DNA of 31,886 nt, taken from the IMG/VR virus record IMGVR_UViG_3300010354_000023, positions 1-31,886 of that record; one strand, given 5' to 3'. The DNA is from a virus. Each line of letters starts with the position of its first letter. Position 1 is the stretch's first letter. Below the pieces are notes generated by a model. The model was not told the origin of the DNA. It made no database searches and saw only the letters and a list, made by a program, of their open reading frames with translations. Position numbers and translations under genes: made by a program. This document shows positions 5,643-26,889 of this stretch, one piece after another.

Positions 5643-6140
5643 TCACACATCCTTATAAGAGAGACCCTTTCTGATCCTGTGTATGGTCATGTCGTATACA
5701 CCATAAAGCCTGGCCAGTTGTCTCTGTGAGAGAGCGGATTGCCGTATGGCCACCACCTGCTCTCTTGTGAATTTGGCCTGAGGTGATCTGGTGCCGTGAC
5801 ATTGCCTACCCCTGGCAATCATATCCCGCATATTGTCCTGCCGTGTGCCCGCATAAAGGTGAGCGGGATTCACACACGGTGGATTGTCGCATCTATGGTT
5901 GACCGTGATATTGCTTGGTAATGTCACACCGTGGACATATTGATACAACCATCTGTGAGCGTGCATACACCGTTGAATCCTACCATTGGGAGCGAACATA
6001 CCGTGACCATAATGACCGCGAGCACCTGTCCAAATCCAACATTGTGAGTCATCCTGTGGAATGTGGACTTTGCGGCAGAAACGCTCAATGGCTGGTTTGG
6101 AGTTGCGATATGGTCCTTTGGGTTTTCCTGTGCGGGGCAT
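5643..6140 (-). CDS. HNH homing endonuclease (third copy, 165 aa)
   Basis: HNH_3-type endonuclease of the kind found free-standing in phages. Zinc-binding and catalytic landmarks: CWIWTG (34..39), HRW at 62..64, then NHRCDNPPCVNPAHL (81..95) with His82, Asn91 and His94 as the presumed metal/catalytic set, and GTRQDN after it. The C-terminal REQVVAIRQ...QRQLARLYGVYDMTIHRIRKG is a helix-turn-helix-like DNA-binding tail. It should nick or cut a specific DNA site and spread itself. No ribosome site precedes the ATG; instead an extended -10 lies so that +1 is the ATG. Base composition is close to that of its neighbours, suggesting an older resident than the copy at 26419. Confidence 0.92.
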   Translation of the reverse strand: MPRTGKPKGPYRNSKPAIERFCRKVHIPQDDSQCWIWTGARGHYGHGMFAPNGRIQRCMHAHRWLYQYVHGVTLPSNITVNHRCDNPPCVNPAHLYAGTRQDNMRDMIARGRQCHGTRSPQAKFTREQVVAIRQSALSQRQLARLYGVYDMTIHRIRKGLSYKDV

Positions 6141-6146
6141 AGAAAT

Positions 6147-6155
6147 ATTATAACA
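6147..6155 (-). promoter_or_regulatory. Extended -10 promoter for leaderless HNH gene at 6140
   Basis: The minus strand reads TGTTATAATATTTCTATG: TGT then TATAAT at -12 to -7 relative to the ATG. The -35 position (TCGTCC) is poor. The TGTTA block begins exactly 15 bases before the ATG, as in the HNH genes at 19571 and 26419. Confidence 0.65.
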
Positions 6156-6250
6156 TCTCTCCTGGTTTTGGACGATGGAAATTTTTTGGGGGGTGGTCTC
6201 CTGGTTTGGGTGAAGATTTTATATAAAACTGTGTTCTGTATTTAAACCAC

Positions 6251-6268
6251 CAAAAGTATAAAAATTAT
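6251..6268. repeat. 18-bp repeat shared with the 3' end of the HNH gene at 19571
   Basis: caaaagtataaaaattat occurs here and at 20046..20063, in both cases beside an HNH gene. It is AT-rich, so chance is possible, but an exact 18-base match in a 32-kb genome is uncommon. Confidence 0.5.
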
Positions 6269-6410
6269 TATAAGTGATATAAGGCCAAGCCATTACCAAT
6301 TCTCAGTGGACACCATTACCAAAAATAAATCATTCTGGCCACCACGGCCTCCACTCTCCTCCACCGTGCCTCACCCTGTCTTGCCAGGACCCTGATGGTT
6401 CTGGGTGTGC

Positions 6411-6671
6411 CTACTGTGCGGCCTCTGTGGTGACCTTTTGCTTGAGATATTGTATGTAATGTCTCAGGGCCTCTTGCTCCAATAACTGTTCACACGTTGC
6501 CTCTCTCTCCTTGTTGGTGGCATAGAACCAACCCATGCCATTGGCTTGTTCATCCAACAGCTCTATCTTCTGGGCCATGGTCAGCGAATGATACTGTTCT
6601 CGCTCCCGCTCGTAGTATTCAAATCTGCGTTCATCCTGAACATCTTGATCTATGTCTTGTGTGTCTATCAT
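6411..6671 (-). CDS. Small acidic helical protein (86 aa)
   Basis: ATG 6671 is preceded by AGGAGA at good spacing and, further up, by the promoter at 6744..6771. The protein is highly charged and predicted helical or coiled coil (DIDQDVQDERRFEYYEREREQYH...MAQKIELLDEQ). No family recognised. Its own strong sigma70-type promoter suggests early expression, perhaps as a host-interacting or regulatory protein, but that is inference. Confidence 0.7.
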   Translation of the reverse strand: MIDTQDIDQDVQDERRFEYYEREREQYHSLTMAQKIELLDEQANGMGWFYATNKEREATCEQLLEQEALRHYIQYLKQKVTTEAAQ

Positions 6672-6743
6672 CAGTGTCTCCTAGGTTGTGAGCGTGAGTT
6701 ATCATAGTGAACATGAACTAAGACTAAAATAACTCACAAATAC

Positions 6744-6771
6744 AGTATAGCACAATTGGTAACGGTGTCAA
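6744..6771 (-). promoter_or_regulatory. Near-consensus sigma70 promoter P2 with extended -10
   Basis: The minus strand carries TTGACA (6771..6766), a 16-base spacer, then TATACT (6749..6744) preceded by TGC. It lies about 70 bases upstream of the 86-residue gene. Same architecture as P1, P3 and P4. Confidence 0.7.
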
Positions 6772-6889
6772 CCTCTCGCGGGCCTCTGCGGCAGAGCGAG
6801 GCCCCAGCTCTCTCCCAGGGTGGACCCTAAATGACTAAAACATACGGGAAGTGTGTTTTTATCTGCAAGGAAAAGGTCCACCCTGTGCT
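6772..6889 (-). ncRNA. Predicted structured RNA or structured leader downstream of promoter P3
   Basis: A transcript from P3 would start near 6889 and within four bases enter a perfect 11-bp stem (6885..6875 with 6826..6816; core AGGGTGGACC / GGTCCACCCT) closing a 48-base loop. A second hairpin follows: GGGCCTC / GAGGCCC at 6804..6798 with 6786..6780. The stretch has no ORF and ends where P2 begins. No T-run terminator is visible, so it may be a separate small RNA or the leader of a longer message through 6671. I recognise no known RNA family. Confidence 0.45.
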
Positions 6890-6895
6890 GTGTGC

Positions 6896-6924
6896 ATTGT
6901 AGCACACTGCGGCCTCAGTGTCAA
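6896..6924 (-). promoter_or_regulatory. Sigma70 promoter P3 with dyad over the -10
   Basis: The minus strand carries TTGACA (6924..6919), a 17-base spacer, then TACAAT (6901..6896) preceded by TGC. The -10 is flanked by a perfect 6-bp inverted repeat, GTGTGC / GCACAC (6890..6907), which could be an operator. Confidence 0.6.
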
Positions 6925-7120
6925 CCACCCCCCGCGGTGCGGCCTGGTGGTGGCCACCCTAGAGGCCGTTTCTACAATTTAAGGTTGTGGGCACGGTGGT
7001 GGCTGGTGGGCGGGGTAGAAAAGTGTTTGAAATCAATGGGTTAGCGGTGGCCCGTCAGGCCACTTGGGTTCTCTTGCTACAGATCTGGGTGTGAATGGTG
7101 GATCCACAGTGGTCACGGCG

Positions 7121-7140
7121 GGCAGAACCGTGGCAGAACC
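7121..7140. repeat. Direct repeat GGCAGAACC with 11-bp period
   Basis: GGCAGAACC occurs at 7121..7129 and 7132..7140, exactly 11 bp apart. The spacing equals that of the GGCAAACA array about 170 bases further right. Confidence 0.7.
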
Positions 7141-7310
7141 CTCAGATTGGGGTGGAGAACGGTGGGTAAAAGGCACTCTAAATGGTGGTTTAGATTGGAT
7201 TTAAAGCCTTTACAGTGGTTTGGGCACCAGACAGACAGGTCCTAATATACCAAATGAGATATCCACCGCTTTTCCACCCTGGCCACTGCTCTTTTACTAT
7301 TCTAGGGCTA

Positions 7311-7354
7311 GGCAAACAAAAGGCAAACAAACCCAAAACAAAAGGCAAACATTG
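7311..7354. repeat. Iteron-like array of four 11-bp units (GGCAAACA)
   Basis: Exact GGCAAACA occurs at 7311, 7322 and 7344, with a degenerate unit (CCAAAACA) at 7333, so four units follow an 11-bp period. Helically phased direct repeats in a non-coding region are typical of initiator or regulator binding sites. Which protein would bind is unknown. Confidence 0.6.
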
Positions 7355-7462
7355 CCCTAACTCTGCTTTTAATACAGAAGATCTGAGTCTTGCATGGGTC
7401 TAATCTTGTAAAATGTATGTTTAAATGCAGGATAGTGTGTCTCTCTATCCTGGTCCTGAGTC

Positions 7463-7666
7463 TTACTTGTTCTTGTCTTTGTTCTTGTCTTTGTGCAGTG
7501 TCCGTTCTATTGCTTGTAGACTGTCTGCTATTCTTTCTAGGTTCCTGTTGATCCAAACCATATTGCTGTAATCTTCTTCACTCATCTGTGTTTTTACATT
7601 CAATGGTTGATATCCTTCTGATATTGAACCTAGACTTTCTGCTATGCTTTCTAGTTGTTCTTGCAA
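7463..7666 (-). CDS. Small helical protein with TTG start (67 aa)
   Basis: Start taken as TTG 7666 because AAAGGGGGT lies nine bases upstream and promoter P4 precedes it; the next in-frame ATG is 27 codons in and lacks a ribosome site. Two amphipathic, coiled-coil-like segments repeat a motif: LESIAESLGSISEG near residue 5 and LERIADSLQAIERT near residue 43. The C-terminus is a charged repeat, KDKNKDKNK. Function unknown; the internal repeat hints at a helical hairpin or oligomer. Confidence 0.65.
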   Translation of the reverse strand: MQEQLESIAESLGSISEGYQPLNVKTQMSEEDYSNMVWINRNLERIADSLQAIERTLHKDKNKDKNK

Positions 7667-7691
7667 ACCTATTACCCCCTTTCATAACACA

Positions 7692-7719
7692 ATTATAGCA
7701 GATTATGCTGTTGTGTCAA
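7692..7719 (-). promoter_or_regulatory. Near-consensus sigma70 promoter P4 with extended -10
   Basis: The minus strand carries TTGACA (7719..7714), a 16-base spacer, then TATAAT (7697..7692) preceded by TGC. It overlaps the last codons of the 64-residue gene and fires into the TTG-started gene at 7666. Confidence 0.75.
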
Positions 7720-7897
7720 CAATATTGTTTGGTAATATATGCAGTGGTAAACTGTGTCGTTTTGTCCACTGTTGTTCTATTCTCGTTTGTTCTCTCCTTC
7801 TCATGGTATAACATCCCGTGCACACGAAACCTTTGTGAGTCTCGTGCCACTGGAGTGTGGTATTTGGTAATCTGCAAGAGGGACACAGGTCAATCAT
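7703..7897 (-). CDS. Small zinc-ribbon protein (64 aa)
   Basis: Two Cys pairs (CPSC at 5..8 and CTGC near 26..29) flank a WHETHKGFVCTGCY segment, a treble-clef or zinc-ribbon pattern. The basic tail (MRRREQTRIEQQWTKRH) could contact nucleic acid. The ATG overlaps the end of the upstream 50-residue gene by 8 bases, so it is the last gene of the 8320->7703 operon. Phages often carry such small zinc-ribbon proteins; the target here is unknown. Confidence 0.7.
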   Translation of the reverse strand: MIDLCPSCRLPNTTLQWHETHKGFVCTGCYTMRRREQTRIEQQWTKRHSLPLHILPNNIVDTTA

Positions 7898-8042
7898 GCT
7901 CCCTCTCCCTCAATTGCCGCTCAGTTTCCTTGATGGCCATACTGAGTGCCGTGCTGATGGTGTGGTCGTTGCGGAATTCTATCTGACGCATCTTGAGATC
8001 CTGTAAGAAACGCTCCAGCAGTGTGCGGTTTAGGTCCTGCAT
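7890..8042 (-). CDS. Small helical protein (50 aa)
   Basis: The ATG at 8042 shares its A with the TGA of the upstream gene (TGATG), so this start is preferred over an in-frame extension that overlaps that gene. The protein is a charged helix (MQDLNRTLLERFLQDLKMRQ...AIKETERQLREREHD). No family recognised. Confidence 0.65.
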   Translation of the reverse strand: MQDLNRTLLERFLQDLKMRQIEFRNDHTISTALSMAIKETERQLREREHD

Positions 8043-8320
8043 CAGTCCGTGTCTCGTGTGATGTCTCGCACGATCATGATCAGATCCTCTGTGGTCCAGC
8101 CTGAGTGTCTCAGTGCCTGTATGCTGGCTCTGGCAGTGGCATACCATATGGCAGTGATGTCGTTGTGGCCTGATCTCTGGGCTTCCTCCAGCATGATCTG
8201 CAGTGCTGTCTCAGCGAAATGGAATCCTGATTGTATCCTGCGTCTCTTGTGTTGTTGCTGTTGTGCCCTCCGCTCCCTGCGGTAGGTGTCCAATCTGATG
8301 ATGCGACCTTGTTTGCTCAT
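8042..8320 (-). CDS. Small protein, first gene of the 8320->7703 operon (92 aa)
   Basis: Start taken at the Met of MSKQGRIIRL; a further ATG at 8350 adds ten residues, and neither has a clear ribosome site. The basic N-terminus (RRERRAQQQQHKRRRIQ) is followed by a helical domain (FHFAETALQIMLEEAQRSGHND...RASIQALRHSGWTTEDLIMIVRDI). The layout (basic tail then helices) suggests nucleic-acid contact, but no motif proves it. It is divergent from the plus-strand operon. Confidence 0.65.
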   Translation of the reverse strand: MSKQGRIIRLDTYRRERRAQQQQHKRRRIQSGFHFAETALQIMLEEAQRSGHNDITAIWYATARASIQALRHSGWTTEDLIMIVRDITRDTD

Positions 8321-8387
8321 GTGTGTTTTTGGGGGGCATCTTTTAAACATGGCACTGTCAGAACTGATGCCCCCATTACCTTAAAGT

Positions 8388-8416
8388 GAACGTTAAACTC
8401 GCAAAAGGGAACGTTC
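8388..8416. promoter_or_regulatory. Paired GAACGTT sites, candidate operator in the divergent intergenic region
   Basis: GAACGTT occurs at 8388..8394 and again at 8409..8415, the second extended to the palindrome GAACGTTC. The 21-bp spacing is two helical turns. The pair sits between the divergent operons starting at 8320 (minus) and 8626 (plus), a natural place for a regulator. An AATAAATA element on the minus strand lies just beyond (8422..8429). Confidence 0.4.
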
Positions 8417-8455
8417 ATGAATATTTATTCAGTGTGACGAAATGTGAGCTAAGAA

Positions 8456-8560
8456 ATGGGTCAGAGAGGATATGCCTATGGAATCTCCAACCCATTCCGT
8501 GCAAAGGAGAAATTCCCAAATGGCTTTGAGATATTTCCATCTGTACTTATACGTTGGTAA
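8456..8560 (+). CDS. Possible 34-aa peptide upstream of the plus-strand operon
   Basis: ATG 8456 opens MGQRGYAYGISNPFRAKEKF... and ends at TAA 8560. Residue usage looks protein-like, but there is no strong ribosome site and the frame overlaps the candidate promoter at 8526..8553. It could be a leader peptide or chance. Confidence 0.3.
   Translation: MGQRGYAYGISNPFRAKEKFPNGFEIFPSVLIRW
8526..8553 (+). promoter_or_regulatory. Candidate sigma70-type promoter for the plus-strand operon
   Basis: TTGAGA (8526..8531), a 16-base spacer, then TATACG (8548..8553). The start would be near 8560, giving a leader of about 65 bases before the ATG at 8626. It is weaker than P1-P4 and lacks TGn. Confidence 0.4.
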
Positions 8561-8625
8561 ATTCAAAAAATGGTTGTGATTTCTTGCTCAGTCATATATA
8601 CTCACAGCAACAAAGGAGAAATCGC

Positions 8626-9384
8626 ATGGCCTCAAATCCAATCAACACAGATAAAAAACCAAACCTAACAAACTATAATAACAATTACATACATTTACAT
8701 ACAAATAACAACAAAGTTAATATAGATTGTGATGAATCACAATCAACTAATGACATTGTGTCCCTTGAGGGATCGCTTCGCTCTTCTCTTGAGTCTTTGA
8801 GAGGAGAAACGGAGAGTGGCACAGAGGGTGGCATGGATGCCACAAGGCAAATGGGCACCTTGCCGCAGGGCTGGGATTGGATCAAAGCGGATCTCTATGA
8901 CAACTCAAAAAATCACAAGCCCAAACACAAACTAAACATTACCATTTGCAAAGGTGGTAAAACTCTTGCTGTCAAGAGCCTCAACAACTCTCCCTGGAGC
9001 CTGTATAGGAGAGGCATTGTGGATTGTAATAATGATCCACACTATCAGCGAGTGAAACAGATCAGACAGGCACTGAAACAGACCACAGATCAGGCTCGCA
9101 TCCGTGTGAGCAAGTGCTACAAAACCAACTATAAAGGTCGTATTGCTGACACCATCCACGGATTCAGCACCATACTGATAGATGAAGCACGGGACAATGT
9201 GTATTCAGTGATCTGTGTGTATCAAGACAAGGAAATCGTGATACCATTGTCAGGCACAGCAGGCAGGCTATCACAAAAACAGAGAAAAGCAGGGCAGATT
9301 GCCACAGGCATGATTCGTGCTGTGACAGAGAAGCAAGGTGTGGACATAGATGATTTACTGAACAATTTGGGAGATTCTTTGTGA
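8626..9384 (+). CDS. Unknown protein, first gene of the plus-strand operon (252 aa)
   Basis: Start chosen at ATG 8626 because AAAGGAG lies just upstream; the frame is open from 8554 but that part lacks a ribosome site. Residues 1..45 are Asn-rich and polar, 45..75 are Ser/Glu/Gly-rich, and the C-terminal 150 residues look folded (WSLYRRGIVDCNNDPHYQRV, GRIADTIHGFSTILIDEARD, then a basic helix SQKQRKAGQIATGMIRAVTE). It is the largest protein outside the structural genes, so a role in replication or takeover is possible, but no motif supports one. A 9-bp inverted repeat (8725..8744) lies inside the gene. Confidence 0.8.
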   Translation: MASNPINTDKKPNLTNYNNNYIHLHTNNNKVNIDCDESQSTNDIVSLEGSLRSSLESLRGETESGTEGGMDATRQMGTLPQGWDWIKADLYDNSKNHKPKHKLNITICKGGKTLAVKSLNNSPWSLYRRGIVDCNNDPHYQRVKQIRQALKQTTDQARIRVSKCYKTNYKGRIADTIHGFSTILIDEARDNVYSVICVYQDKEIVIPLSGTAGRLSQKQRKAGQIATGMIRAVTEKQGVDIDDLLNNLGDSL

Positions 9385-9590
9385 AATATCTAGAGCGATG
9401 CCATGATGGTTGCAGGATGTATCTGGTGGAATCACCTGCAACTTCACCGCATTATGGTGTATTGCGATGCAAAGAACACGGTTTTATCAAATGGTTAAGC
9501 GAATCACAATATCAAGAATTATATCCTGTGATGTATCCTTCCAAAGGCATCACAGCAGATGATTTTATTAAAGAAATGAGAGCAAGGTAA
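9381..9590 (+). CDS. Small Cys-containing protein with an IKWLS motif (69 aa)
   Basis: GTG 9381 overlaps the TGA of the previous gene (GTGA), implying coupled translation. The segment SPHYGVLRCKEHGFIKWLS resembles the H.A.L.C..CG..IKWL signature of small phage proteins often found near replication genes. Here the zinc-ribbon-like cysteines are reduced to C.....C near the N-terminus (CHDGC) and CKEH. Function unknown. Confidence 0.7.
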   Translation: MKYLERCHDGCRMYLVESPATSPHYGVLRCKEHGFIKWLSESQYQELYPVMYPSKGITADDFIKEMRAR

Positions 9591-9649
9591 AGACACAGTG
9601 CTCTAGAGCCGTGTAAAGACCTTATTGTTCGTTTAAAGCACCATTTAGA

Positions 9650-9678
9650 TTGACTTCTACAGCACAATTTTGTATCAT
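9650..9678 (+). promoter_or_regulatory. Candidate promoter placing +1 at ATG 9685
   Basis: TTGACT (9650..9655), a 17-base spacer, then TATCAT (9673..9678). The -10 lies at -12 to -7 relative to ATG 9685, so the message would be leaderless, as proposed for the HNH genes. Confidence 0.4.
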
Positions 9679-9684
9679 TGTGTT

Positions 9685-9942
9685 ATGGCTCTGTTAAAAG
9701 ATATATTAATCAGCACGGCATTTGTTTCACAAGAAGATAGACTGCAATTTCTTAGGCAAAAAATTGCCTGTGCCAATCCAGAAGAACTGCTCTATTATGA
9801 ACACTTGATCAAGGCCGTGGTCTATTATGCCAAACCAGAGGATCGTGAGTGGTTCCTGCAACACGCATTATTGGAAGACATACACACAAGGAGAATGTAT
9901 TTTGCTCCTAAAATGACACCACCACCAAGTCTTGAACAATGA
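9685..9942 (+). CDS. Small helical protein (85 aa)
   Basis: ATG 9685 chosen over an in-frame TTG at 9670 because neither has a ribosome site and the promoter at 9650..9678 puts +1 at the ATG. Predicted helical and acidic (EDRLQFLRQKIACANPEELLYYEHLIKAV...EDREWFLQHALLEDIH). It ends with an ATGA overlap onto the next gene. No family recognised. Confidence 0.65.
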   Translation: MALLKDILISTAFVSQEDRLQFLRQKIACANPEELLYYEHLIKAVVYYAKPEDREWFLQHALLEDIHTRRMYFAPKMTPPPSLEQ

Positions 9943-10208
9943 GCATCACAAAACTTAAAAAACTTGCATCTGAACGATTGCCCATCCTGTCAGCGGAACA
10001 GCAGGATCTGAGGGAATGGGAAGACATCCTGTTGCAGAGAGAATGGAGAGCAGAGCAACTGGAAAGAAGAATGCAGAGCAATCCACACAGGCACAGGCAC
10101 ACCATTACCAAAAGAGATATCCTCAATCCCAAAAAAACCAGCAGGGCATATCACAATGACTCCCATGGTGCGGAGCATTACGCAGACTATAATCCAGACC
10201 TGCATTAA
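9939..10208 (+). CDS. Small charged protein (89 aa)
   Basis: The ATG overlaps the stop of the preceding gene by 4 bases (ATGA). The first half is a likely coiled coil (LSAEQQDLREWEDILLQREWRAEQLERRMQ); the second half is His/Asn-rich and probably disordered (HRHRHTITKRDIL...HNDSHGAEHYADYN). No function suggested by sequence. Confidence 0.65.
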   Translation: MSITKLKKLASERLPILSAEQQDLREWEDILLQREWRAEQLERRMQSNPHRHRHTITKRDILNPKKTSRAYHNDSHGAEHYADYNPDLH

Positions 10209-10217
10209 ATATCTCTG

Positions 10218-10754
10218 ATGAATCATTGCCTCGTGTTCTTCAACGGACCTTCCGTGACCCAATTCTACTCACTGCCCCGCAAGATCACGGAGATAGGTTG
10301 CAATTTCATACAGCGGCACAGGCCCATGGACCACGTGTGCTGTTTTGATCATCAGATGAAATCCAAGATCACACCCACACCACCCGCACTGCATTACTGC
10401 AGGAATGGACACAGGGGTCAAGGTTGGGGTGAGGTCACATGGAGCTCGCACGAGACCATACAGAACTCAGGCATGATGGCCATCAGATTGGCAATCACGC
10501 TGAGATTCCAACACATATGGGTGTTGGGCTGTGATTGGGGCACCACCACCCAGTCAGTGTATGATCACCTCTACCACAAGGATCCCTCGCTGCCACAGGC
10601 ACCAGGTCGCAAGAAATACACCAACGGATCGCTGAGGCAGATGGATGAATGGATGGAAAAACGCGGTGTGAGCGTGGTCACTGATCAGCGGAGCCCGTTC
10701 AGGAAACCCGTCATCTCCTCCGCAACCTTCTTGAAGCACTACGAGGCCCTCTAG
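10218..10754 (+). CDS. NGPS-motif transferase-like protein (178 aa)
   Basis: Begins MNHCLVFFNGPSVTQFYSLP, a Rossmann-like strand plus NGPS loop, and later has GWGEVTWSSHETIQNSGMM.. then AIRLAITLRFQHIWVLGCDWG. NGPS near the N-terminus and a ..G..AI..A..LGF..I.LLG.D.. strand further on are the landmarks of sialyltransferase-like (GT42) and DUF115-type proteins, which handle nucleotide-sugar-like substrates. The protein is shorter than those enzymes, so activity is uncertain. It is the last gene of the plus operon and its 3' end overlaps the oppositely oriented gene at 10711. Confidence 0.65.
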   Translation: MNHCLVFFNGPSVTQFYSLPRKITEIGCNFIQRHRPMDHVCCFDHQMKSKITPTPPALHYCRNGHRGQGWGEVTWSSHETIQNSGMMAIRLAITLRFQHIWVLGCDWGTTTQSVYDHLYHKDPSLPQAPGRKKYTNGSLRQMDEWMEKRGVSVVTDQRSPFRKPVISSATFLKHYEAL

Positions 10755-11028
10755 CGGTGCGTGGCCTCCCAGGCCTATGCACACCACTCCTGTATCTCAC
10801 GGGCTCACCCCCCACCTCATCCTTGCGATGGTAGTAGATCAGATAGTGCATGGGCTCAGGTTCTAATAGAAAACGACAGAAGTGATAGGATCCGTTGAGG
10901 CAACTGCCATAACGAGAATGCCATTGTGCATCATCCTGCTGTATCATCACTTTCTTTATCCGCTTGTGTGTGCGGCAACTGAAATTGCCCAAGCGGTCCA
11001 ATTTATTAAAAAATTTTGTGCTGTCCAT
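10711..11028 (-). CDS. Unknown protein ending the tail operon (105 aa)
   Basis: ATG 11028 directly follows the TAG of the tail-tip gene (11029), so it is probably translated by coupling. Residues 1..75 are basic and contain three Cys (FSCRTHKRIKKVMIQQDDAQWHSRYGSCLNG). The last 25 residues are an Arg/Pro-rich tail encoded antisense to the end of the 178-residue plus-strand gene (44-base overlap), which may be read-through of the natural end. Function unknown. Confidence 0.6.
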   Translation of the reverse strand: MDSTKFFNKLDRLGNFSCRTHKRIKKVMIQQDDAQWHSRYGSCLNGSYHFCRFLLEPEPMHYLIYYHRKDEVGGEPVRYRSGVHRPGRPRTARGPRSASRRLRRR

Positions 11029-14211: not shown

Positions 14212-14215
14212 AATC

Positions 14216-15384: not shown

Positions 15385-15385
15385 G

Positions 15386-17182: not shown

Positions 17183-17184
17183 CG

Positions 17185-17346: not shown

Positions 17347-17372
17347 AATGAATCTCAACTCAACGTTGGTTG

Positions 17373-17717: not shown

Positions 17718-17720
17718 TTT

Positions 17721-18026: not shown

Positions 18027-18027
18027 A

Positions 18028-18606: not shown

Positions 18607-19043
18607 TATAATACACCTTTCTTGTAGGTATAGAAAACATCCACTGTGACAATTACTTCACCCAGTGGTATCTCTCTTTCCACAATCTGTATATTACTAA
18701 TTCTTGTGGTAACATTGTGAATGTTGCCTGAATTTACGCTGATATCTCTGCCTCGTTGTTGCTCTAGAGTTTCTTCAATTCTTTCCACTATCTCATTCCT
18801 CAATGTGTCCAATTCTGGTCCTCTCACATAGCATCTCAACACGTATTGTGTTTTGCTTCTGCGAAGATCCATGGATACATCTTCTCTGTCCTCAGTGGTG
18901 GTCACAACCAATATGGCTGGGAATTGTGTGATGGCTAATTTTACCACATCAAAATATTTACGACTAACCAAACCAGGTGCTGGCTGTGTCATATTTTGTA
19001 ATTGCTGGACTATGTTGATGGCTATATTTTCTCTAGCTGACAT
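18606..19043 (-). CDS. Tail terminator / neck protein candidate (145 aa)
   Basis: Length, place (second after the capsid, before the tube) and sequence (ARENIAINIVQQLQNM...FPAILVVTTTEDREDVSMDLRRSKTQYVLRCYVRG...IVERIEETL, then IPLGEVIVTVDVFYTYKKG) suit tail terminator/tail completion proteins, which cap the tube end. The ATG overlaps the preceding stop (TAATG), as does the stop with the next gene. Assignment rests on context and general pattern. Confidence 0.6.
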   Translation of the reverse strand: MSARENIAINIVQQLQNMTQPAPGLVSRKYFDVVKLAITQFPAILVVTTTEDREDVSMDLRRSKTQYVLRCYVRGPELDTLRNEIVERIEETLEQQRGRDISVNSGNIHNVTTRISNIQIVEREIPLGEVIVTVDVFYTYKKGVL

Positions 19044-19495
19044 TATCTCTGCAATCTTCTATGATAGTAGGGTTTCTTTTCAGTTTCACTAAATGTGCCT
19101 GAACTGTCAAGATCGTATTCAACACCAACTTGTAGTATCAAATTAAATTCTTCTTCAAATTTACTCTTGTAGTAGGACATCTTTTCTCTGAAAACATCAC
19201 CCGCTGGATCAAAGGTAGATAGCTTGGGATATATGTAGTATGCCAGAACATGATACACCGCGGCTCTTTCAAATTGGCTGGCATTGAGTTTGCCTTCTTC
19301 CAATCTGGTCACGTTGCCTGTGAGAACGGAAATGTCCACTCTCCCAAATTTTGTTGTGGGCCACCAACGAATGTTGAGCAGTCTCACGATGTCATCGTAT
19401 GTTCTTTGATGTAGGTCGCTGAAGTCTTGGATACCAAACTCCAAAATTTGGGGTTCATAATCCTTCAGATCAGCATCTGTTGCGAATTGTGACAT
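19043..19495 (-). CDS. Head-tail connector / adaptor (150 aa)
   Basis: First head-neck gene after the capsid. Sequence ATDADLKDYEPQILEFGIQDFSDLHQRTYDDIVRLLNIRWW at the start, then a helical FERAAVYHVLAYYIYPKL segment, fits the small helical adaptor proteins that bind the portal ring. AAGGA lies before ATG 19495. A TATAAATA element (19543..19550) is upstream and overlaps the promoter of the divergently oriented HNH gene, so this gene probably has its own transcription start. Confidence 0.65.
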   Translation of the reverse strand: MSQFATDADLKDYEPQILEFGIQDFSDLHQRTYDDIVRLLNIRWWPTTKFGRVDISVLTGNVTRLEEGKLNASQFERAAVYHVLAYYIYPKLSTFDPAGDVFREKMSYYKSKFEEEFNLILQVGVEYDLDSSGTFSETEKKPYYHRRLQR

Positions 19496-19535
19496 AGAAG
19501 TCCTTCTTTTATGTTGTTAATCAAGTCCTACTTGA

Positions 19536-19564
19536 TTGATATTATTTATATAAAATGTTATAGT
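19536..19564 (+). promoter_or_regulatory. Promoter for leaderless HNH gene at 19571
   Basis: TTGATA (19536..19541), 17 bases, then TATAGT (19559..19564) preceded by TGT. The -10 lies at -12 to -7 from ATG 19571, so +1 should be the ATG. No ribosome site is present. Confidence 0.65.
19543..19550 (-). promoter_or_regulatory. TATAAATA late-type element before the connector gene
   Basis: The minus strand reads TATAAATAATATC, 47 bases before ATG 19495, within the spacer of the opposing HNH promoter. No -35 is apparent. Confidence 0.45.
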
Positions 19565-19570
19565 ATGTGA

Positions 19571-20056
19571 ATGAAAGCCATTGATAGATTCACGAAAAAG
19601 GTCAAGATTGCAGATTCAGGCTGTTGGGAATGGATGGGGGCTAGAGATAGATATGGTAGTTTTTGGTATGATGGTGCTAACATTGGACCACATCGTTGGA
19701 TCTATGAATATGTGCATAATAAAAAATTACCCAAAGATATCTATGTTTGTCACACCTGTGACAATGGGGGTTGTGTAAATCCTGCACATCTATTTGAAGG
19801 CACAGCCGCTGATAATACGAATGACAAAGTGAACAAAGGCAGACATACCAAAGGTGTAGATGTCAATACTAATAAACTCACTGAAGCAGATGTTCTATTC
19901 ATCAGAGAGAACAGACACCTTAAAACAAAATATCTAGCTAAAAATTTTGGAGTTAATATACATCATATTAACAAATTGAAAAGAGGTCTTGGTTGGAAGC
20001 ACTTAAACGAGAAAGGCCCAATTAAGGGCCTCTCTCAGTGTCAAACAAAAGTATAA
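19571..20056 (+). CDS. HNH homing endonuclease (first late-operon copy, 161 aa)
   Basis: HNH_3-type. Landmarks: CWEWMGARDRYG (18..29), HRWIYEY at 41..47, CHTCDNGGCVNPAHL (60..74) with His61, Asn70, His73, then GTAADN. The C-terminal LTEADVLFIRENRHLKTKYLAKNFGVNIHHINKLKRG is a helix-turn-helix-like DNA reader. It is placed antisense between the capsid gene and the connector gene. Its stop is 3 bases from the capsid stop (convergent) and its start is 75 bases from the divergent connector start. It has its own leaderless promoter. It should cut an unoccupied capsid-connector junction in related phages and spread by repair. Confidence 0.92.
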   Translation: MKAIDRFTKKVKIADSGCWEWMGARDRYGSFWYDGANIGPHRWIYEYVHNKKLPKDIYVCHTCDNGGCVNPAHLFEGTAADNTNDKVNKGRHTKGVDVNTNKLTEADVLFIRENRHLKTKYLAKNFGVNIHHINKLKRGLGWKHLNEKGPIKGLSQCQTKV

Positions 20057-20063
20057 AAATTAT
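20046..20063. repeat. 18-bp repeat shared with 6251..6268
   Basis: caaaagtataaaaattat spans the stop codons of the convergent HNH and capsid genes and overlaps the inverted repeat at 20050..20066. The other copy lies upstream of the HNH gene at 6140. Confidence 0.5.
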
Positions 20064-20066
20064 ACT
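20050..20066. terminator. AT-rich inverted repeat between convergent HNH and capsid genes
   Basis: AGTATAA-AAA-TTATACT is a perfect 7-bp stem spanning both stop codons. On the minus strand it is followed by TTTGTTTG, so it may weakly terminate capsid-side transcription. The stem is all AT apart from one pair, so strength is doubtful. Confidence 0.35.
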
Positions 20067-20959: not shown

Positions 20960-21001
20960 CTTTAACTCCTTATTGTTAAGTTAAATTTGACTTACAATCT
21001 A

Positions 21002-21703: not shown

Positions 21704-21757
21704 CGTGTGTTTCTCCTTTTTGTTGAACAAGGGCAGGATATACCCTCGTAATGCAGT

Positions 21758-21765
21758 TATTTATA
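21758..21765 (-). promoter_or_regulatory. TATAAATA late-type element before the scaffold and capsid genes
   Basis: The minus strand reads CTGTATAAATAACTGC, 54 bases before ATG 21703, in the end of the preceding small gene. The CTG prefix is also found in the element at 1053. Confidence 0.45.
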
Positions 21766-21770
21766 CAGGA

Positions 21771-21974
21771 TTACTTGATGGCAAAGAAATTGTTGCTGAT
21801 GCTCCACAGCACCAATAATAGGGATCCAACCACTGTGATCAGTTTGATCCACAGCATGATGTTTTCAATGCAGAGTCTTTGTTTCTTATTCTTGAGCAGT
21901 TGTTTCTGTAATATTACAGATTTTTTGGTAAGAGCATCTATTCTTTTAAGGAGTGTTTTTTCAAAGCGATTCAT
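21771..21974 (-). CDS. Small membrane protein (67 aa)
   Basis: The basic N-terminal half is coiled-coil-like (NRFEKTLLKRIDALTKKSVILQKQLLKNKKQR). It is followed by one transmembrane segment, about residues 40..60 (MLWIKLITVVGSLLLVLWSI). The size and layout would allow a holin- or spanin-like role, but nothing proves lysis. Located between small virion genes and the scaffold. Confidence 0.6.
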   Translation of the reverse strand: MNRFEKTLLKRIDALTKKSVILQKQLLKNKKQRLCIENIMLWIKLITVVGSLLLVLWSISNNFFAIK

Positions 21975-21976
21975 GA

Positions 21977-22246
21977 TTATTTTTTCCTGTGCCTGCGGGC
22001 AAATGTCCTTGCTTCAATCTTGCTACTGAATCCCCATCGTTTGAGTGCAAGGGCCAATCTCGTGGGCTTGTTTCTTGTGCCCATGCTGCCGCTCATGCCA
22101 CCAAACCTGGCAGCGAAACTGACTCTGCGTGGTGATGTGCCTGATCTCAACGGTGCTCTCAATTTGGCACCCGTGGTTCTTCTAAAAAAGTTCCTGCCTC
22201 GCTGATTTAGTCCCCCTCTGGGATTTTGATAGATTTTTTTTACCAT
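21977..22246 (-). CDS. Basic phage protein with a SFAARFGGMSG motif (89 aa)
   Basis: Arg/Lys/Gly-rich. The core PRRVSFAARFGGMSGSMGTRNKPTRLALALKRWGFSS resembles the small phage domain with the pattern R.SF.AR..GM.G.M....KPTR.A.AL..W. Proteins of this kind are common near phage head genes; their function is not established. The basic tail ARRHRKK suggests DNA or RNA contact. Confidence 0.65.
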   Translation of the reverse strand: MVKKIYQNPRGGLNQRGRNFFRRTTGAKLRAPLRSGTSPRRVSFAARFGGMSGSMGTRNKPTRLALALKRWGFSSKIEARTFARRHRKK

Positions 22247-22253
22247 CCTTTAT

Positions 22254-22904
22254 TTACTTTTTTTCTGTGTCTCTGTAATCGTAGTCGTATTGTCCCACTT
22301 CCTTCTCATCTGTGGTCCAACGGGGTTGGTCCTCTACTGACCAATTGTGAGTGTTGACCAATCTGTCAATCAATGGTGGTTGATTTAAATCTGTGCCCAT
22401 GTTGCTGTCAAACACCCTGCATCTGTTGTTTGGTTGCAGTGCAAAATTGCCGTTATCTAATTTTATGCAATGGGCTGCCTTGTGTTGATCTGGCTTGCCT
22501 GCATAACCATAGTTGAGCTCATTGTAGTCACCCTCTGTCCAATCCAGTGTGAACAGATATCTGCCTTCAAATTGTGTTTTGTCTCTGGTTGTGAATCGCA
22601 TCTTGGCACCTGACAGTTGATGGAATGTGGTGACCGCTATGTTGTAGGAAAATGAATCCCACAGCACCAGATCGTGTAATGGTTGTTCCTTGACTCCTTC
22701 TTCCTGACAGAATGCTGATATGGGTGCCCTCCACCATATGCCTCCATCTTCCATAACAAAATGGAACAAGGGTGCCTGCTTGGGTGCTGAACACACACCA
22801 AATACCACACACCAAAAATATTTGTCGTGGCTGTCTCGTTGATCTCTGAGATAGTTGCCCCTCACATAGCATTCTATCAATGGTATGTTGGCATTAAGAT
22901 ACAT
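22254..22904 (-). CDS. Conserved-looking protein of unknown function (216 aa)
   Basis: Begins MYLNANIPLIECYVRGNYLRD and has Trp/Tyr/Cys-rich strands (DKYFWCVVFGVCSAPKQAPLFHFVMEDGGIWWRAPISAFC), an ELNYGYAGKPDQHKAAHCIKLDNGNFALQPNNRC block and an acidic C-terminus. It looks like a compact globular enzyme or virion accessory protein; I cannot name the family with confidence. Overlaps the previous gene by 11 bases. Confidence 0.7.
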   Translation of the reverse strand: MYLNANIPLIECYVRGNYLRDQRDSHDKYFWCVVFGVCSAPKQAPLFHFVMEDGGIWWRAPISAFCQEEGVKEQPLHDLVLWDSFSYNIAVTTFHQLSGAKMRFTTRDKTQFEGRYLFTLDWTEGDYNELNYGYAGKPDQHKAAHCIKLDNGNFALQPNNRCRVFDSNMGTDLNQPPLIDRLVNTHNWSVEDQPRWTTDEKEVGQYDYDYRDTEKK

Positions 22905-23181
22905 TGGGTTTTTTCTTTCTTGGTTGATTCTGTTTCTGTGGTGGAGTTATGATGGGCTTGCCTTGATTCCTGTATGGACTGTAAAGTTCCAACAATTCTA
23001 ATCCTCGCTGATGTGCCACCCTCTTGAGATTGGTCAGTGCCTTTCTTGCCTTCTCAGCATATAACCTGCTGGGATGGTCCATCAGTTTTTGGGTGTTGAT
23101 GAAATATTGTTCTATCAATATTTTTATCTGTTCGTGCCTAGCACTTTCAACTGGTAATCTATATAATGCTCTGATTGTCAT
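22894..23181 (-). CDS. Small helical basic protein (95 aa)
   Basis: Begins 7 bases after the SpeD-like gene stop. Mostly helical (SARHEQIKILIEQYFINTQKLMDHPSRLYAEKARKALTNLKRVAHQRGLELLELYSPYR) with a basic, proline-rich tail (PQKQNQPRKKKP). No family recognised. The tight spacing places it in the portal-to-scaffold operon. Confidence 0.65.
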   Translation of the reverse strand: MTIRALYRLPVESARHEQIKILIEQYFINTQKLMDHPSRLYAEKARKALTNLKRVAHQRGLELLELYSPYRNQGKPIITPPQKQNQPRKKKPNVS

Positions 23182-23188
23182 GATGGAT

Positions 23189-23566
23189 TTATATTATATA
23201 TTCAAATCCATTCTCTCTGTCTAAAAATTTATAATCTATCATCATAATACCAAAATATTCATCCAACCAATCTGTGACATCTTTTATTTCAAAATTTTTA
23301 CAAGAATAACAATCAATTTGTATCACGTTGGGCTTGGGCTCATTCCAGCAGTGTATCGCGATGTGGCTGGTTTCAATGATGGCTGTGCCTGACCAACCCA
23401 CATTGCCTTCGTTGGGACAATAGGCAGTGAAAGGACCTGCCAATATCTTCATGTCTATCCTTGAGATTAAATCTTGTAGTGCTGAATCTAGATCAAAGTC
23501 TTTGTCAGGTGCCTGATCCACTAGAGCCCGTATTAAGAGATGCTTGTGCACCAGCTTGGGTTCCAT
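23189..23566 (-). CDS. SpeD-like pyruvoyl-dependent decarboxylase (125 aa)
   Basis: Matches S-adenosylmethionine decarboxylase proenzymes: GTAIIETSHIAIHCWNEP aligns with the G.A...ESH.SIHTWPE core, and VIQIDCYSCK with the .DVFTCG strand. Ser67 would be the autocleavage site that becomes the pyruvoyl group, His68 and Cys89 the processing/catalytic residues. The residue before Ser67 is Thr, not the usual Glu, and TCG is SCK, so processing or substrate may differ. Some phage SpeD relatives decarboxylate ornithine or arginine instead. The role could be polyamine supply or SAM depletion. It starts TAATG-coupled to a 40-residue gene, inside the head operon. Confidence 0.78.
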   Translation of the reverse strand: MEPKLVHKHLLIRALVDQAPDKDFDLDSALQDLISRIDMKILAGPFTAYCPNEGNVGWSGTAIIETSHIAIHCWNEPKPNVIQIDCYSCKNFEIKDVTDWLDEYFGIMMIDYKFLDRENGFEYII

Positions 23567-23688
23567 TATTTTTTCTTATACCCTGATGCGAAGATTGCAC
23601 GTGCCTGCTTCATGGCCTGTTTCTTGGTGGGATAGGTCTTGCCAGAGGTGCCCCATTTGTAGCCTCCCTTGACTTTACGAATTGGCAT
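23566..23688 (-). CDS. 40-residue protein between portal and SpeD-like genes
   Basis: ATG 23688 lies inside the end of the portal gene and its TAA overlaps the next ATG (TAATG at 23566). Sequence: MPIRKVKGGYKWGTSGKTYP, then TKKQAMKQARAIFASGYKKK. The pattern K.GGY.WG.SGK.Y.TK..A..Q..AI.ASGY is that of a very small, basic phage protein often found after portal or head genes. Its function is unknown. Confidence 0.78.
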   Translation of the reverse strand: MPIRKVKGGYKWGTSGKTYPTKKQAMKQARAIFASGYKKK

Positions 23689-25150
23689 TTTCATCCTCCA
23701 ATTCTATTTCTTCACCCTCTTCATTTTCTCCCAATTCTTCCGCTTCTCCCTCAACTTGTTCCGTGTTGGGATTTTCTGTGGTCTCTAACAGGGTCTCTTC
23801 TATTTCTAATAATTCCAATATCTTCATATCAATCGCTGCCTTGACCTTTGGATCTGCTGGATTGGTGTCCGCTGCCTTTTTCAGTATGTCAATGTCCAAA
23901 CTCTTGTCTCTGAAATGGAATGCTTTGGGATATTCAATCTCTCCATCAAAAACCATGCCTTGCCATTCAGCGAAGTATCTCCATATCTGTTCTTCTGCCA
24001 ATTCAAGATTCTTGGCCTTCTCATTTAATTTGGCATCCAATAGCACAAATTCTGACTGCATGGCCACACCTGACATCTGTCTGGTCTCAATGGCTCTCAC
24101 GGCACCCAGATGTGCCATCCTATCAATGGCCTTGATGGTCTCATCTATGGTTTGCAATATGGCTTGTAAATTTTGTCCTGATGGTTGTAGTATGTAAGGT
24201 TTAAGATTGGCATCCATGTCAGCGGGCATTTCAATGATGGCACCTGCTCCTGCTGATGCTTGAGTTTCTGCTGTTTTTACCAATGTGGGGTGATTGGTTA
24301 ATCTTATCAACTGTTCTGCCTCACTGTATAATTGGTAAAGAAAGTTTTGTGCATCTGCTATGTCTGCAATATCACTCACACCAATACCACGCAGGGGTGA
24401 TCTATTGGCATAGACCCATACTGCTGGAATTTTGCCCAGTGGGTTGGGTTTTCTTTCAATGTCTTCTATGGGATTTTTCTTTTTGGGATTATAACTTTGT
24501 AATAGGATCTCATCTCTGGTCCATGTCCTGATATAATAGATTGTGTCTTGTTGATAACTTCTCTCTTCCTGTTCTAAAAAACGAATATATTGCAATTCAT
24601 ATTTGCCACTAGGCATTCTTATAAAACTCCAATCCAATATGTTCTCAGGAGTGTAAATTGTCACATACGGCCTGATACCTTGTTGTAATTCTTCTGCTCT
24701 TGTGCCTACCTGTGTTTCAGGTCTGTCAACCAGTACACAGCAATGGCCATAGATGCTGGATTGTATATTCACATCTTGAATAAAACTTTTCCAACTTCTG
24801 CCATCCATGTCAGCATCTTTCAAGAATTGTTCCAATTCTGGCATCCCTTCCATGGATCCAAATTCTCTGTCTGGTTCATGTCTAAATAAGAATGAATTGT
24901 AGATATGGATCACTGCCTTGCAGTGATTGTCCAATGGTGTCTGTGCTATCCTGTTGGCATAATCATTGTCACTCTCAAAAATGTATTTGGTGAGATATTG
25001 TCCCATCTTGTATTGCACACCACCAAGATATGATGCTGATAGGAATTTCCATCTTCTTATAAAATTATGATATTCTTCGTGGACAGGCAATCCCTGGGTG
25101 TTGGTTCCCCCCACACTGCGATCTTGATTTACGAAACTATAATCTGCCAT
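23675..25150 (-). CDS. Portal protein (491 aa)
   Basis: Follows the large terminase with a 14-base overlap. Residues 1..100 (HEEYHNFIRRWKFLSASYLGGVQYKMGQYLTKYIFESDNDYANRIAQTPLDNHCKAVIHIYNSFLF) and the later PLRGIGVSDIADIADAQNFLYQLYSEAEQLIRLTNHPTLV are typical portal features (dodecameric ring, wing and stem). The middle RAIETRQMSGVAMQSEFVLLDAKLNEKAKNLELAEEQIWRYFAEW is the usual SG.A.....L..KL...A..LE..E. helix. The C-terminal 45 residues are very acidic (Glu-rich). Forms the DNA entry channel at one capsid vertex. Confidence 0.9.
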   Translation of the reverse strand: MADYSFVNQDRSVGGTNTQGLPVHEEYHNFIRRWKFLSASYLGGVQYKMGQYLTKYIFESDNDYANRIAQTPLDNHCKAVIHIYNSFLFRHEPDREFGSMEGMPELEQFLKDADMDGRSWKSFIQDVNIQSSIYGHCCVLVDRPETQVGTRAEELQQGIRPYVTIYTPENILDWSFIRMPSGKYELQYIRFLEQEERSYQQDTIYYIRTWTRDEILLQSYNPKKKNPIEDIERKPNPLGKIPAVWVYANRSPLRGIGVSDIADIADAQNFLYQLYSEAEQLIRLTNHPTLVKTAETQASAGAGAIIEMPADMDANLKPYILQPSGQNLQAILQTIDETIKAIDRMAHLGAVRAIETRQMSGVAMQSEFVLLDAKLNEKAKNLELAEEQIWRYFAEWQGMVFDGEIEYPKAFHFRDKSLDIDILKKAADTNPADPKVKAAIDMKILELLEIEETLLETTENPNTEQVEGEAEELGENEEGEEIELEDENANS

Positions 25151-26384
25151 GGGTCCTTCCTACCTTTACGTTGAATGTTTTTACCTCTGATGGTTCATGG
25201 TATCTATTGATTGGGAATAAGAATGAAATGAGGTATCCAAGGGCATCGTTCATATGCGAATATATTCCTGCTTCTGGCACGTTGGTGCCTTCCTTGAAGC
25301 ATTGTTTCTGTATGCTATTTAACAGATTCTGGCACCGTGGATGTATTATTATGCCTCTGATTCCTGCCGCTGAGTTCAGTTTGGAATTCACACAATTGAT
25401 CCTATCCCTAACGGCCATGTGCCTATTGTGTAATTTACAGATGAAACCAGCATTTTGCAATATCATAAGATCTGTTTTACCACCCGCTGATGATCTCCTC
25501 TGCCTACAGGCAGGATCTGGATATACGAATATCTTCTTGTTCTTGTATCTATTGTGTATTTCATCACACAGCTCATCTGTGTTGGATCCATACATGGATA
25601 TTTCATCAAACACGTGCACCACCCCATCTTGAATATAAGATACCACAGAACTCATGGGTGACACGTTGAAATCCTGTCCTATGTGCAACATGGTCACGTG
25701 CTCAGGCATCTCAAATGCCTTCACGTTGTGTTTGATGTCAAAACCATAATAGACCACTCCTGAGAATGTTTCCCAAGTGGCTTCATATTCTTGCCTAAAA
25801 ACTTTTTCTGATAGATCCTTGCGTGCTTGTTCTATTTCTTCAGCATCTACCCAACCACCTTGCAGTGTGGTGAACTGCCAACTCTTCCAATCTGGATTGC
25901 CCATCTGTCCCTGTTGATATAGATCGTAAAACCAACTCAACCCTTTGGGTGTGCCGCAGAACAGTGCCTTGCCCTTGGTATCTGATAATGTGGGCCTCAA
26001 TGTGGCTGTCCATGCTTCTTGTTCAATGTCCGCACACTCATCCATCACTAAAAAATTTATACCTACCCCCCTCAGTGAATCTGGATTGTCCGCTCCCCTC
26101 AGACAGATCCTTGAACCATTCTTTAACACAATGGTAAGTTCTGCTTCATTGATGGTCTTGGACCATCTTAGATCTTGAATTATTTTTTTTAATTGCACCC
26201 AAGCGATCTGTTTGGCCTGCCTGTAGCTGGGTCCAATGTACCAACAAAGTTGGTTGGGCATCCTTGCTTGATAACACAGTTCTCTGATGGCCAATGTGGT
26301 CTTGCCAAATCTCCTGCCACATACTGCCACTCTAAATCTTGCTGTGCTGTCAGCTACCTGTTGTTGCGGCTGTGATAATTTCAT
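25137..26384 (-). CDS. terL: Terminase large subunit (415 aa)
   Basis: ATPase: Walker A GRRFGKT (residues 23..29), Walker B FLVMDE with Asp115/Glu116, coupling motif CGTPKG (143..148). Nuclease: RNase H-like acidic residues at Asp238 (HIGQDFN), Asp290 (VYPDPA) and Asp380 (HMNDALGYLI). Drives DNA packaging and cuts the concatemer. Length 415 is on the short side of the family but all motifs are present. A TATAAATA element lies 25 bases upstream (26410..26417); there is no clear ribosome site. The small subunit gene is separated from it by the antisense HNH gene. Confidence 0.95.
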   Translation of the reverse strand: MKLSQPQQQVADSTARFRVAVCGRRFGKTTLAIRELCYQARMPNQLCWYIGPSYRQAKQIAWVQLKKIIQDLRWSKTINEAELTIVLKNGSRICLRGADNPDSLRGVGINFLVMDECADIEQEAWTATLRPTLSDTKGKALFCGTPKGLSWFYDLYQQGQMGNPDWKSWQFTTLQGGWVDAEEIEQARKDLSEKVFRQEYEATWETFSGVVYYGFDIKHNVKAFEMPEHVTMLHIGQDFNVSPMSSVVSYIQDGVVHVFDEISMYGSNTDELCDEIHNRYKNKKIFVYPDPACRQRRSSAGGKTDLMILQNAGFICKLHNRHMAVRDRINCVNSKLNSAAGIRGIIIHPRCQNLLNSIQKQCFKEGTNVPEAGIYSHMNDALGYLISFLFPINRYHEPSEVKTFNVKVGRTHGRL

Positions 26385-26412
26385 TGATTTTTAATAATTT
26401 TTTTGTTAATAT
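26384..26412 (+). promoter_or_regulatory. Promoter for leaderless HNH gene at 26419
   Basis: TTGATT (26384..26389), 17 bases, then TAATAT (26407..26412) preceded by TGT. The -10 lies at -12 to -7 from ATG 26419. TGTTA begins exactly 15 bases before the ATG, as in the other two HNH genes. The -35 overlaps the terminase start codon. Confidence 0.6.
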
Positions 26413-26417
26413 TTATA
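26410..26417 (-). promoter_or_regulatory. TATAAATA late-type element before the large terminase
   Basis: The minus strand reads GTATAAATATTAAC, 25 bases before ATG 26384. It overlaps the -10 of the opposing HNH promoter, making a compact bidirectional control element. Confidence 0.5.
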
Positions 26418-26418
26418 C

Positions 26419-26889
26419 ATGAACAACAGAATGAATCTCGTAATTAATAAATTTTGGAGAAATATTAAAAAAACTAATCATTGTTGGATTTGGATGGGTA
26501 AAAAAGATAGAGATGGATATGGGCAAATTTCTTTGTTCAATCATACCAATTTAAAAATCAGAGGAGCACATCGTTTGAGTTATTGGATTCATAATAATTA
26601 TAAAAATCCAAAAAATAATTTTATTTGTCACAGTTGTGATAATCCATCTTGTGTAAATCCAGCACATTTAATTCTTGCAGATGTGCATTGGAACAACAAT
26701 GATAAAATTAAAAAAAATAAACAAAAAGGTCCTAAGGGAATACAAAATTCTCAAGCAAAATTTAATAATAAGGATATCATTGATATAAGAAATGATCACA
26801 ACCATTATGAAATTATATCTTTAAAATATAATGTTCATCCTGAAACGATTAGATTAATTAAAAAAAGAAAAACCTGGAAACATCTTTGA
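26419..26889 (+). CDS. HNH homing endonuclease between terminase subunits (156 aa)
   Basis: HNH_3-type. Landmarks: CWIWMGKKDRDGYGQ (22..36), HRLSYW at 51..56, CHSCDNPSCVNPAHL (70..84) with His71, Asn80, His83. The C-terminal AKFNNKDIIDIRNDHNHYEIISLKYNVHPETIRLIKKRKTWKHL is a helix-turn-helix-like module. Inserted antisense between small and large terminase; the stop is 11 bases from the convergent small-terminase stop. Strongly AT-rich (23% GC at 26701..26760, against 40% in a sampled 60 bases of terL at 25441), so probably a recent arrival. Own leaderless promoter, no ribosome site. Confidence 0.92.
   Translation: MNNRMNLVINKFWRNIKKTNHCWIWMGKKDRDGYGQISLFNHTNLKIRGAHRLSYWIHNNYKNPKNNFICHSCDNPSCVNPAHLILADVHWNNNDKIKKNKQKGPKGIQNSQAKFNNKDIIDIRNDHNHYEIISLKYNVHPETIRLIKKRKTWKHL

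Follow-up and report, generated by a model that had tools for sequence, protein, structure and literature searches.

The free-standing homing genes of phage T4 (seg and mob) are intergenic single-gene inserts that are present or absent between close relatives, and some have their own promoter (PMC2988022). The endonuclease-specific promoters of T4 are middle or late, none being early, and all of these genes but segD are co-directional; segD lies antisense beside the major capsid gene and no promoter was found for it, while in I-TevI to III the Shine-Dalgarno (SD) sequence is hidden in a hairpin (PMC2988022). Leaderless (TA-led) bacterial genes have a -10-like signal about 12 bp before the start and no SD sequence (Zheng et al. 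2011, PMC3160421). For a mycobacteriophage HNH homing endonuclease that is hidden in a methylase gene and is without an SD sequence, leaderless initiation was proposed by the authors (PMC11855218). Here we describe three HNH endonuclease genes, HNH1, HNH2 and HNH3, in a linear IMG/VR record of 31,886 bp (the window, meaning the whole stretch analysed), which is the genome of an uncultured aquatic tailed phage with its late genes on the minus strand. All three have a -10-like box at the same short distance before the ATG, and they are probably free-standing homing-type cassettes with a minimal sigma70-type promoter that would give leaderless messages. HNH2 is the best case, HNH1 comes next as a plausible one and HNH3 is ambiguous. 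The genes and their upstream elements are as follows.

5643 to 6140, minus strand: HNH1, predicted HNH_3 endonuclease, 165 aa; Pfam HNH_3 at 40.8 bits, PHROG 1872; sole in-frame start
19571 to 20056, plus strand: HNH2, predicted HNH_3 endonuclease, 161 aa; antisense to the capsid operon
26419 to 26889, plus strand: HNH3, predicted HNH endonuclease, 156 aa; antisense, between the terminase small and large subunit genes
6147 to 6155, minus strand: extended -10 of HNH1, TGTTATAAT, hexamer at 6147-6152; homolog starts peak at the same offset
19556 to 19564, plus strand: extended -10 of HNH2, TGTTATAGT, hexamer at 19559-19564; inside the insert
26404 to 26412, plus strand: extended -10-like box of HNH3, TGTTAATAT, hexamer at 26407-26412; TGCTAATAT at equal offset in the relative L076
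19536 to 19541, plus strand: -35-like TTGATA of HNH2; flank DNA conserved in relatives without HNH2, L336 having TTGTTT there
26384 to 26389, plus strand: -35-like TTGATT of HNH3; spans the left junction of the insert, with TTG from the flank and ATT from the insert

The sequences before the ATG are TGTTATAATATTTCT (6140, minus), TGTTATAGTATGTGA (19571, plus) and TGTTAATATTTATAC (26419, plus). In each, TGn and a -10-like hexamer occupy -15 to -7, the hexamers (TATAAT, TATAGT and TAATAT) standing at -12 to -7, and the -18 to -4 region has no SD motif; an AGGAG about 17 nt upstream of HNH1 is too distant for SD pairing. HNH1, HNH2 and HNH3 are thus TA-led in the published sense, with the hexamer about 12 bp before the start and no SD sequence. 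The -35-like hexamers of HNH2 and HNH3 are 17 bp from the -10, and no -35 match was found for HNH1. The initial annotation had reported the missing ribosome sites, a TGTTA 15 bases before each ATG, the hexamers at -12 to -7 and TTGATA or TTGATT 17 bp upstream in two of the three, all of which are exact by sequence. It had also stated that other genes here mostly have good ribosome sites or coupled starts; about half of them have an SD-like motif, and many remaining ones overlap the preceding gene. All three ATGs are well fixed because no in-frame start codon lies further upstream of HNH1, HNH2 or HNH3.

A TGn with a good -10 at -12 is absent from every other curated gene start of the window, and the only further perfect TGnTATAAT at that offset precedes a non-gene ATG (7685, minus) whose frame is 35 codons long. 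Dinucleotide shuffling of the three 60-nt upstream regions, repeated 20,000 times, never gave TGTTA or TGn plus TAnnnT at a common offset in all three. The HNH2 promoter ranks among the best sigma70-like sites of the window. The predicted structure in the first 60 nt of the three putative messages is no greater than in shuffles. Just upstream of the HNH1 promoter (6156-6200), AAACCAGGAGA is present twice.

HNH1 and HNH2 belong to HNH_3 (PF13392), being above the Pfam cut-off; HNH3 falls below it, yet all three match the PHROG 1872 endonuclease family, HNH3 at 2e-22. Their alignment (A1) has a conserved His/Asn/Cys core (invariant H41, H61, C63, N65, C68, H73 and N82) and the sequence match to I-PpoI is weak. 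HNH1 and HNH3 are 42% and 38% identical to HNH2, respectively. HNH1 runs in the same direction as its neighbours, and HNH2 and HNH3 run antisense to the late operon. When 16 contigs were searched over the whole record, no second contig with three HNH genes bearing the layout came up.

The layout recurs in HNH homologs. We compared 150 HNH clusters (viral plus 50 cellular) with starts fixed by homology, and leaving out the window gave 97 viral clusters. Ten of the 97 have a full sigma70-like promoter (score of at least 7) whose -10 starts at -12 or -11, against a shuffle mean of 0.23 and a maximum of 3 in 200 runs; the 27 other offsets together account for 7 viral clusters. With one start rule applied to all genes, 8/93 HNH genes carry the layout vs 3/1066 other open reading frames (ORFs; p=1.7e-7, window included). 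The layout is also linked to orientation, being found in 7/27 clusters with a divergent upstream neighbour vs 2/65 co-directional ones (p=0.002, window excluded), and roughly one in three co-directional viral homologs carries an SD-like motif in its place. None of the 50 cellular clusters has it. The layout as a trait of the whole HNH_3 family is ruled out by 0/50 cellular and 10/97 viral clusters; the -10 position upstream of HNH_3 homologs, which had been expected to be fixed, is a peak at -12/-11 above chance and above other genes. Judged from these sequences, the layout would be a real but minority expression strategy of HNH cassettes.

Individual homologs retain both elements. L076 has an HNH3 homolog (84% identical) at the same site with TTGATG-17-TAATAT-6-ATG, and at the HNH2 site L349 has TTGACA-17-TATAAT-5-ATG and phage DSL-LC06 an antisense HNH gene with TTGATT-17-TATAAT-6-ATG. 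Elsewhere the arrangement is TTGATT-17-TATAAT-6 in L042, TTGATA-17-TATAAT-6 in L113, TTGGTA-17-TATAAT-5 in L005 and TTGTTT-17-TATAAT-6 in L006; the HNH genes of L042, L006, L113, L005, L061 and L015 have unlike upstream DNA and a hexamer-to-ATG distance of 5-6 nt in each. Among ten named-phage records, HNH genes are co-directional with the upstream gene except for the antisense HNH of DSL-LC06. HNH genes of the MKRFFDKV type (L016, L019, L026-L034, L047-L054 and others) have a conserved block, GTTCGTATATTTGTGACTACAAAATATAAGTAT, abutting the ATG, which the leaderless layout does not explain.

Empty sites, taken from IMG/VR terminase relatives, delimit two of the cassettes as follows.

26387 to 26886, plus strand: predicted HNH3 insert, 500 bp, 32 bp of it before the ATG; empty sites L331 and L332
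26373 to 26384, plus strand: left copy of a 12-bp repeat flanking the HNH3 insert, TGATAATTTCAT
26887 to 26898, plus strand: right copy of the 12-bp repeat, TGATAGTTTCAT; supplies the HNH3 stop codon
19551 to 20003, plus strand: predicted HNH2 insert, about 453 bp; empty site L336, right junction exact, left approximate
20010 to 20036, minus strand: old capsid-operon terminator hairpin, GGCCC...GGGCC; the HNH2 frame reads through it, and L336 has the same DNA without HNH2

HNH3 is absent in L331 (terminase 99% identical) and L332 (97%), where the small and large terminase genes are near-adjacent. The left flank agrees with L331 through 26386, and the right flank is an exact match of at least 60 nt to the empty site of L332, beginning at 26887. 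The 12-bp imperfect repeat TGATARTTTCAT around the HNH3 insert is absent around the L076 copy and would be unusual for repair-based homing. HNH2 is absent in L336 (capsid protein 94% identical) and L337; its right junction is at 20004 and its left junction near 19551. The last 17 HNH2 residues and the stop are encoded by pre-existing DNA, which L336 has at 88% identity (tblastn), and clear terminators stand at the capsid-operon end in L341, L345 and L354. HNH2 and HNH3 are therefore present or absent at one site in close relatives, as is expected of mobile genes; the terminases of relatives without one or the other are 89-99% identical. The inserts bring about 20-32 bp before the ATG with the -10 lying within the insert in both cases, and neither brings its own stop. 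By comparison with the empty sites, HNH2 and HNH3 are inserts that bring their own -10. No IMG/VR relative turned up with HNH1 as the query, and with the gene neighbouring it none turned up in IMG/VR or among named phages; L335 spans the DNA downstream of the HNH1 site and has a different gene upstream of it.

The layout extends beyond HNH genes. IMG/VR was scanned without bias for the pattern TTGA-N16-TGYTATAAT-N6-ATG, and the figures that follow hold among the matches listed. Of 46 long ORFs near the sites, 41 share the frame of the ATG that follows TATAAT by 6 nt, where about one third would be expected, and an alternative start preceded by an SD sequence exists for only 5 of these 41. On these counts the layout marks genuine starts. 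Families found include DNA polymerase B, NAD ligase, thymidylate synthase, PD-(D/E)XK nucleases and two GIY-YIG proteins; no HNH was detected among the listed ORFs by a home-made profile or in the listed Pfam families. The idea that the layout is special to HNH genes must be given up, as many other phage genes, DNA polymerase, ligase and thymidylate synthase among them, start in this way. Such starts look common in uncultured phages, with HNH cassettes as one user. One of the three non-HNH ORFs with the layout, L131:3917, begins like a GIY-YIG protein (CGIYRITNTANGKIYIGSA), hinting at a second homing class that may use it.

We propose that the main (sigma70-type) RNA polymerase of the host would recognise the minimal promoter in the cassette and start transcription at the A of the ATG (the seventh base after the hexamer) or within a base or two; for HNH1 the predicted +1 is the A of the ATG at 6140. 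The message would be leaderless, and ribosomes would initiate at the 5'-terminal AUG without SD pairing. An insert would then need only about 20-32 bp before the ATG, with the -35 offered or completed by the flank (in HNH1 the extended -10 alone may suffice) and the stop codon borrowed from the flank. Such a cassette could be expressed from intergenic gaps against the operon direction, back to back with a neighbour's promoter. Expression would be early, because the promoter is host-type, and the cassettes would presumably act as nucleases and spread by homing.

The likeliest alternative concerns HNH3: instead of a forward -10, its box may be a late promoter of the terminase read in reverse complement (TATAAATA), carried or created by the insert, with HNH3 itself weak or silent. 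The HATAAATA motif is likely a late promoter, and is taken as such because it resembles the T4 late consensus. The window has 8 copies of it, every one on the late strand, against 3.75 expected for both strands together, and 5 of the 8 sit 33-79 nt before a curated gene start; late-strand genes are A-rich, however, so some strand bias is to be expected. The copies of concern here, and the fold beside one of them, are listed below.

26410 to 26417, minus strand: TATAAATA, putative late promoter with the terminase start 33 nt downstream; overlaps the HNH3 -10
19543 to 19550, minus strand: TATAAATA, putative late promoter of gene 19043-19495; back to back with the HNH2 promoter
19519 to 19537, minus strand: AATCAAGTAGGACTTGATT, inverted repeat in the presumed 5' leader of gene 19043-19495; predicted fold

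The HNH3 box in TGTTAATATTTATAC is the reverse complement of TATAAATA, and L076 has the same box (ATATAAATATTAGCA on the late strand). In relatives, AATAAATA is conserved before the gene downstream of capsid (alignment A3) together with the hairpin. This inverted repeat, downstream of AATAAATA, has AGGA in its loop and its arms co-vary in L350 and L354. A late promoter does not need a -35, however, whereas the window and L076 both keep TTGAT exactly 17 bp from the -10 despite a diverged spacer; the motif also leaves unexplained HNH1 and HNH2, in which the -10 does not overlap it. We consider a late promoter with a weak or silent HNH3 possible, if somewhat doubtful. The HNH3 box is ambiguous, being a forward -10, a terminase late promoter or both, and the double role is favoured because the TTGAT is kept at 17 bp in both copies while the spacer has diverged. 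Across the viral clusters, ATAAATA lies on the opposite strand within 100 nt in 6/13 layout-bearing HNH clusters vs 2/87 others.

A second alternative is that the HNH genes are expressed from longer transcripts, by read-through or from distant promoters, with SD-less translation through A+T-rich, unstructured starts and incidental -10 boxes. HNH1 would suit it, as it is co-directional and has strong TTGACA-type promoters upstream (6749, 6901 and 7697, minus); the HNH starts are indeed weakly structured, and the majority of HNH homologs belong to operons, an SD-like motif being present in many. However, the -12/-11 peak far exceeds shuffles of the same sequences and the other genes of the same contigs, HNH2 and HNH3 oppose the operon so that no upstream transcript is evident for them, and the strongest examples retain a -35 at 17 bp. 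Longer transcripts seem an unlikely explanation. Common ancestry, in which one cassette was copied within the genome without selection for leaderless starts, is very improbable: the three HNH genes do share one genome and one PHROG family, but they are diverged in sequence, their upstream DNA is dissimilar outside the boxes, and the same spacing is found in other HNH clusters with unlike upstream DNA. That TATAAT-like boxes fell there by chance, as they could anywhere in A+T-rich intergenic DNA, is scarcely credible given the shuffles and the repetition of the result in an independent homolog set, even if TGTTA at -15 of any window ATG (5 seen vs 2.5 expected) is weak evidence taken alone.

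Several points weigh against leaderless, self-promoted cassettes. Most HNH homologs are without the layout, and an SD-like motif is present in 2 of the 10 clusters that support it. The HNH gene of DSL-LC06 could also start at an in-frame ATG 15 nt further upstream, and in L074, the closest homolog of HNH2, 10 nt separate TATAAT from the ATG. HNH1 is without a -35 and could be expressed by read-through because it is co-directional with its neighbours, and the HNH3 -10 is confounded with the opposing late-promoter motif. Flank DNA, not the cassette, supplies the -35 of HNH2 and the first three bases of the HNH3 -35, and to this extent the initial proposal of a mobile gene with its own promoter, borne out by the empty sites and by the -10 that the inserts bring, falls short. 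On the side of method, the score threshold was set in the course of the analysis (with a peak that is stable from 6 to 9), the promoter weights are general ones for E. coli and may not be those of the host, and two of the scan seeds, L006 and L042, had already been seen with the layout before use.

The window is related to DSL-LC06 (Dishui Lake) and to the pelagiphages HTVC111P, 112P, 202P and 026P, with terminase identity of 49-51% and capsid protein identity of 35-39%. No Rfam family was matched and no tRNA gene was found in it. Four strong TTGACA promoters with a TGC-extended -10 (5548, 6749, 6901 and 7697, minus) are early-promoter candidates of the left genome part; that at 7697 has an ATG 6 nt past TATAAT opening only the 35-codon frame. 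A small accessory gene (10218-10754, plus) with a weak PHROG match to sialyltransferase has TAAATA 6 nt before the ATG and no SD sequence, and seven relatives are likewise without one; its homologs L341:11934, L345:9659, L346:16117, L354:5945, L360, L074 (minus, 3954) and L349 have TAAATA 5 nt before the ATG. We read it as a likely leaderless gene driven by the putative late promoter of the phage itself. Among the head genes, 23189-23566 (minus) encodes an S-adenosylmethionine decarboxylase-like protein (Pfam AdoMet_dc).

How a homing gene is expressed wherever it lands, above all antisense, is a question even in T4, as segD illustrates. The smallest solution would be a promoter that serves at once as the entire 5' region, and it would explain the persistence of antisense inserts; it would also give a simple rule for annotating the starts of SD-less phage genes, and it hints that uncultured aquatic phages commonly have leaderless genes. 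More tentatively, environmental phages may harbour a class of self-sufficient antisense homing cassettes of at most about 0.5 kb, made of a leaderless core promoter and a stopless ORF and placed back to back with late promoters of essential genes; the HNH3 insert may give the terminase its late promoter, making cassette loss costly. The initial annotation knew of no description of this layout for HNH_3 phage endonucleases, and we likewise found no published account of such a promoter layout in phage homing genes in the open-access literature, subscription papers being outside the search.

Like T4 seg and mob, these genes are intergenic single-gene inserts present or absent between relatives, and HNH2 is antisense near capsid as segD is. 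Unlike T4-type regulated homing genes, HNH1, HNH2 and HNH3 have no SD sequence at -18 to -4 and their starts are weakly structured; unlike T4-type free-standing homing genes, HNH2 and HNH3 are antisense, HNH1 alone being co-directional. T4 segD as a leaderless parallel is ruled out, having an upstream TATAAT but also an SD-like GGAG before its start. The mycobacteriophage hidden HNH gene differs in being embedded, out of frame, in a host gene and carried on a longer transcript, with no promoter of its own described and Mycobacterium as host (PMC11855218). Phage AR9 offers a gene that lies within another transcription unit and has a promoter of its own; its leaders, however, are 26-491 nt, not leaderless, and a phage polymerase is used. 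TA-led genes have the same signal as HNH1, HNH2 and HNH3, but were described in cellular genomes, most strongly in Actinobacteria and Deinococcus-Thermus, and not in phage endonuclease cassettes (PMC3160421).

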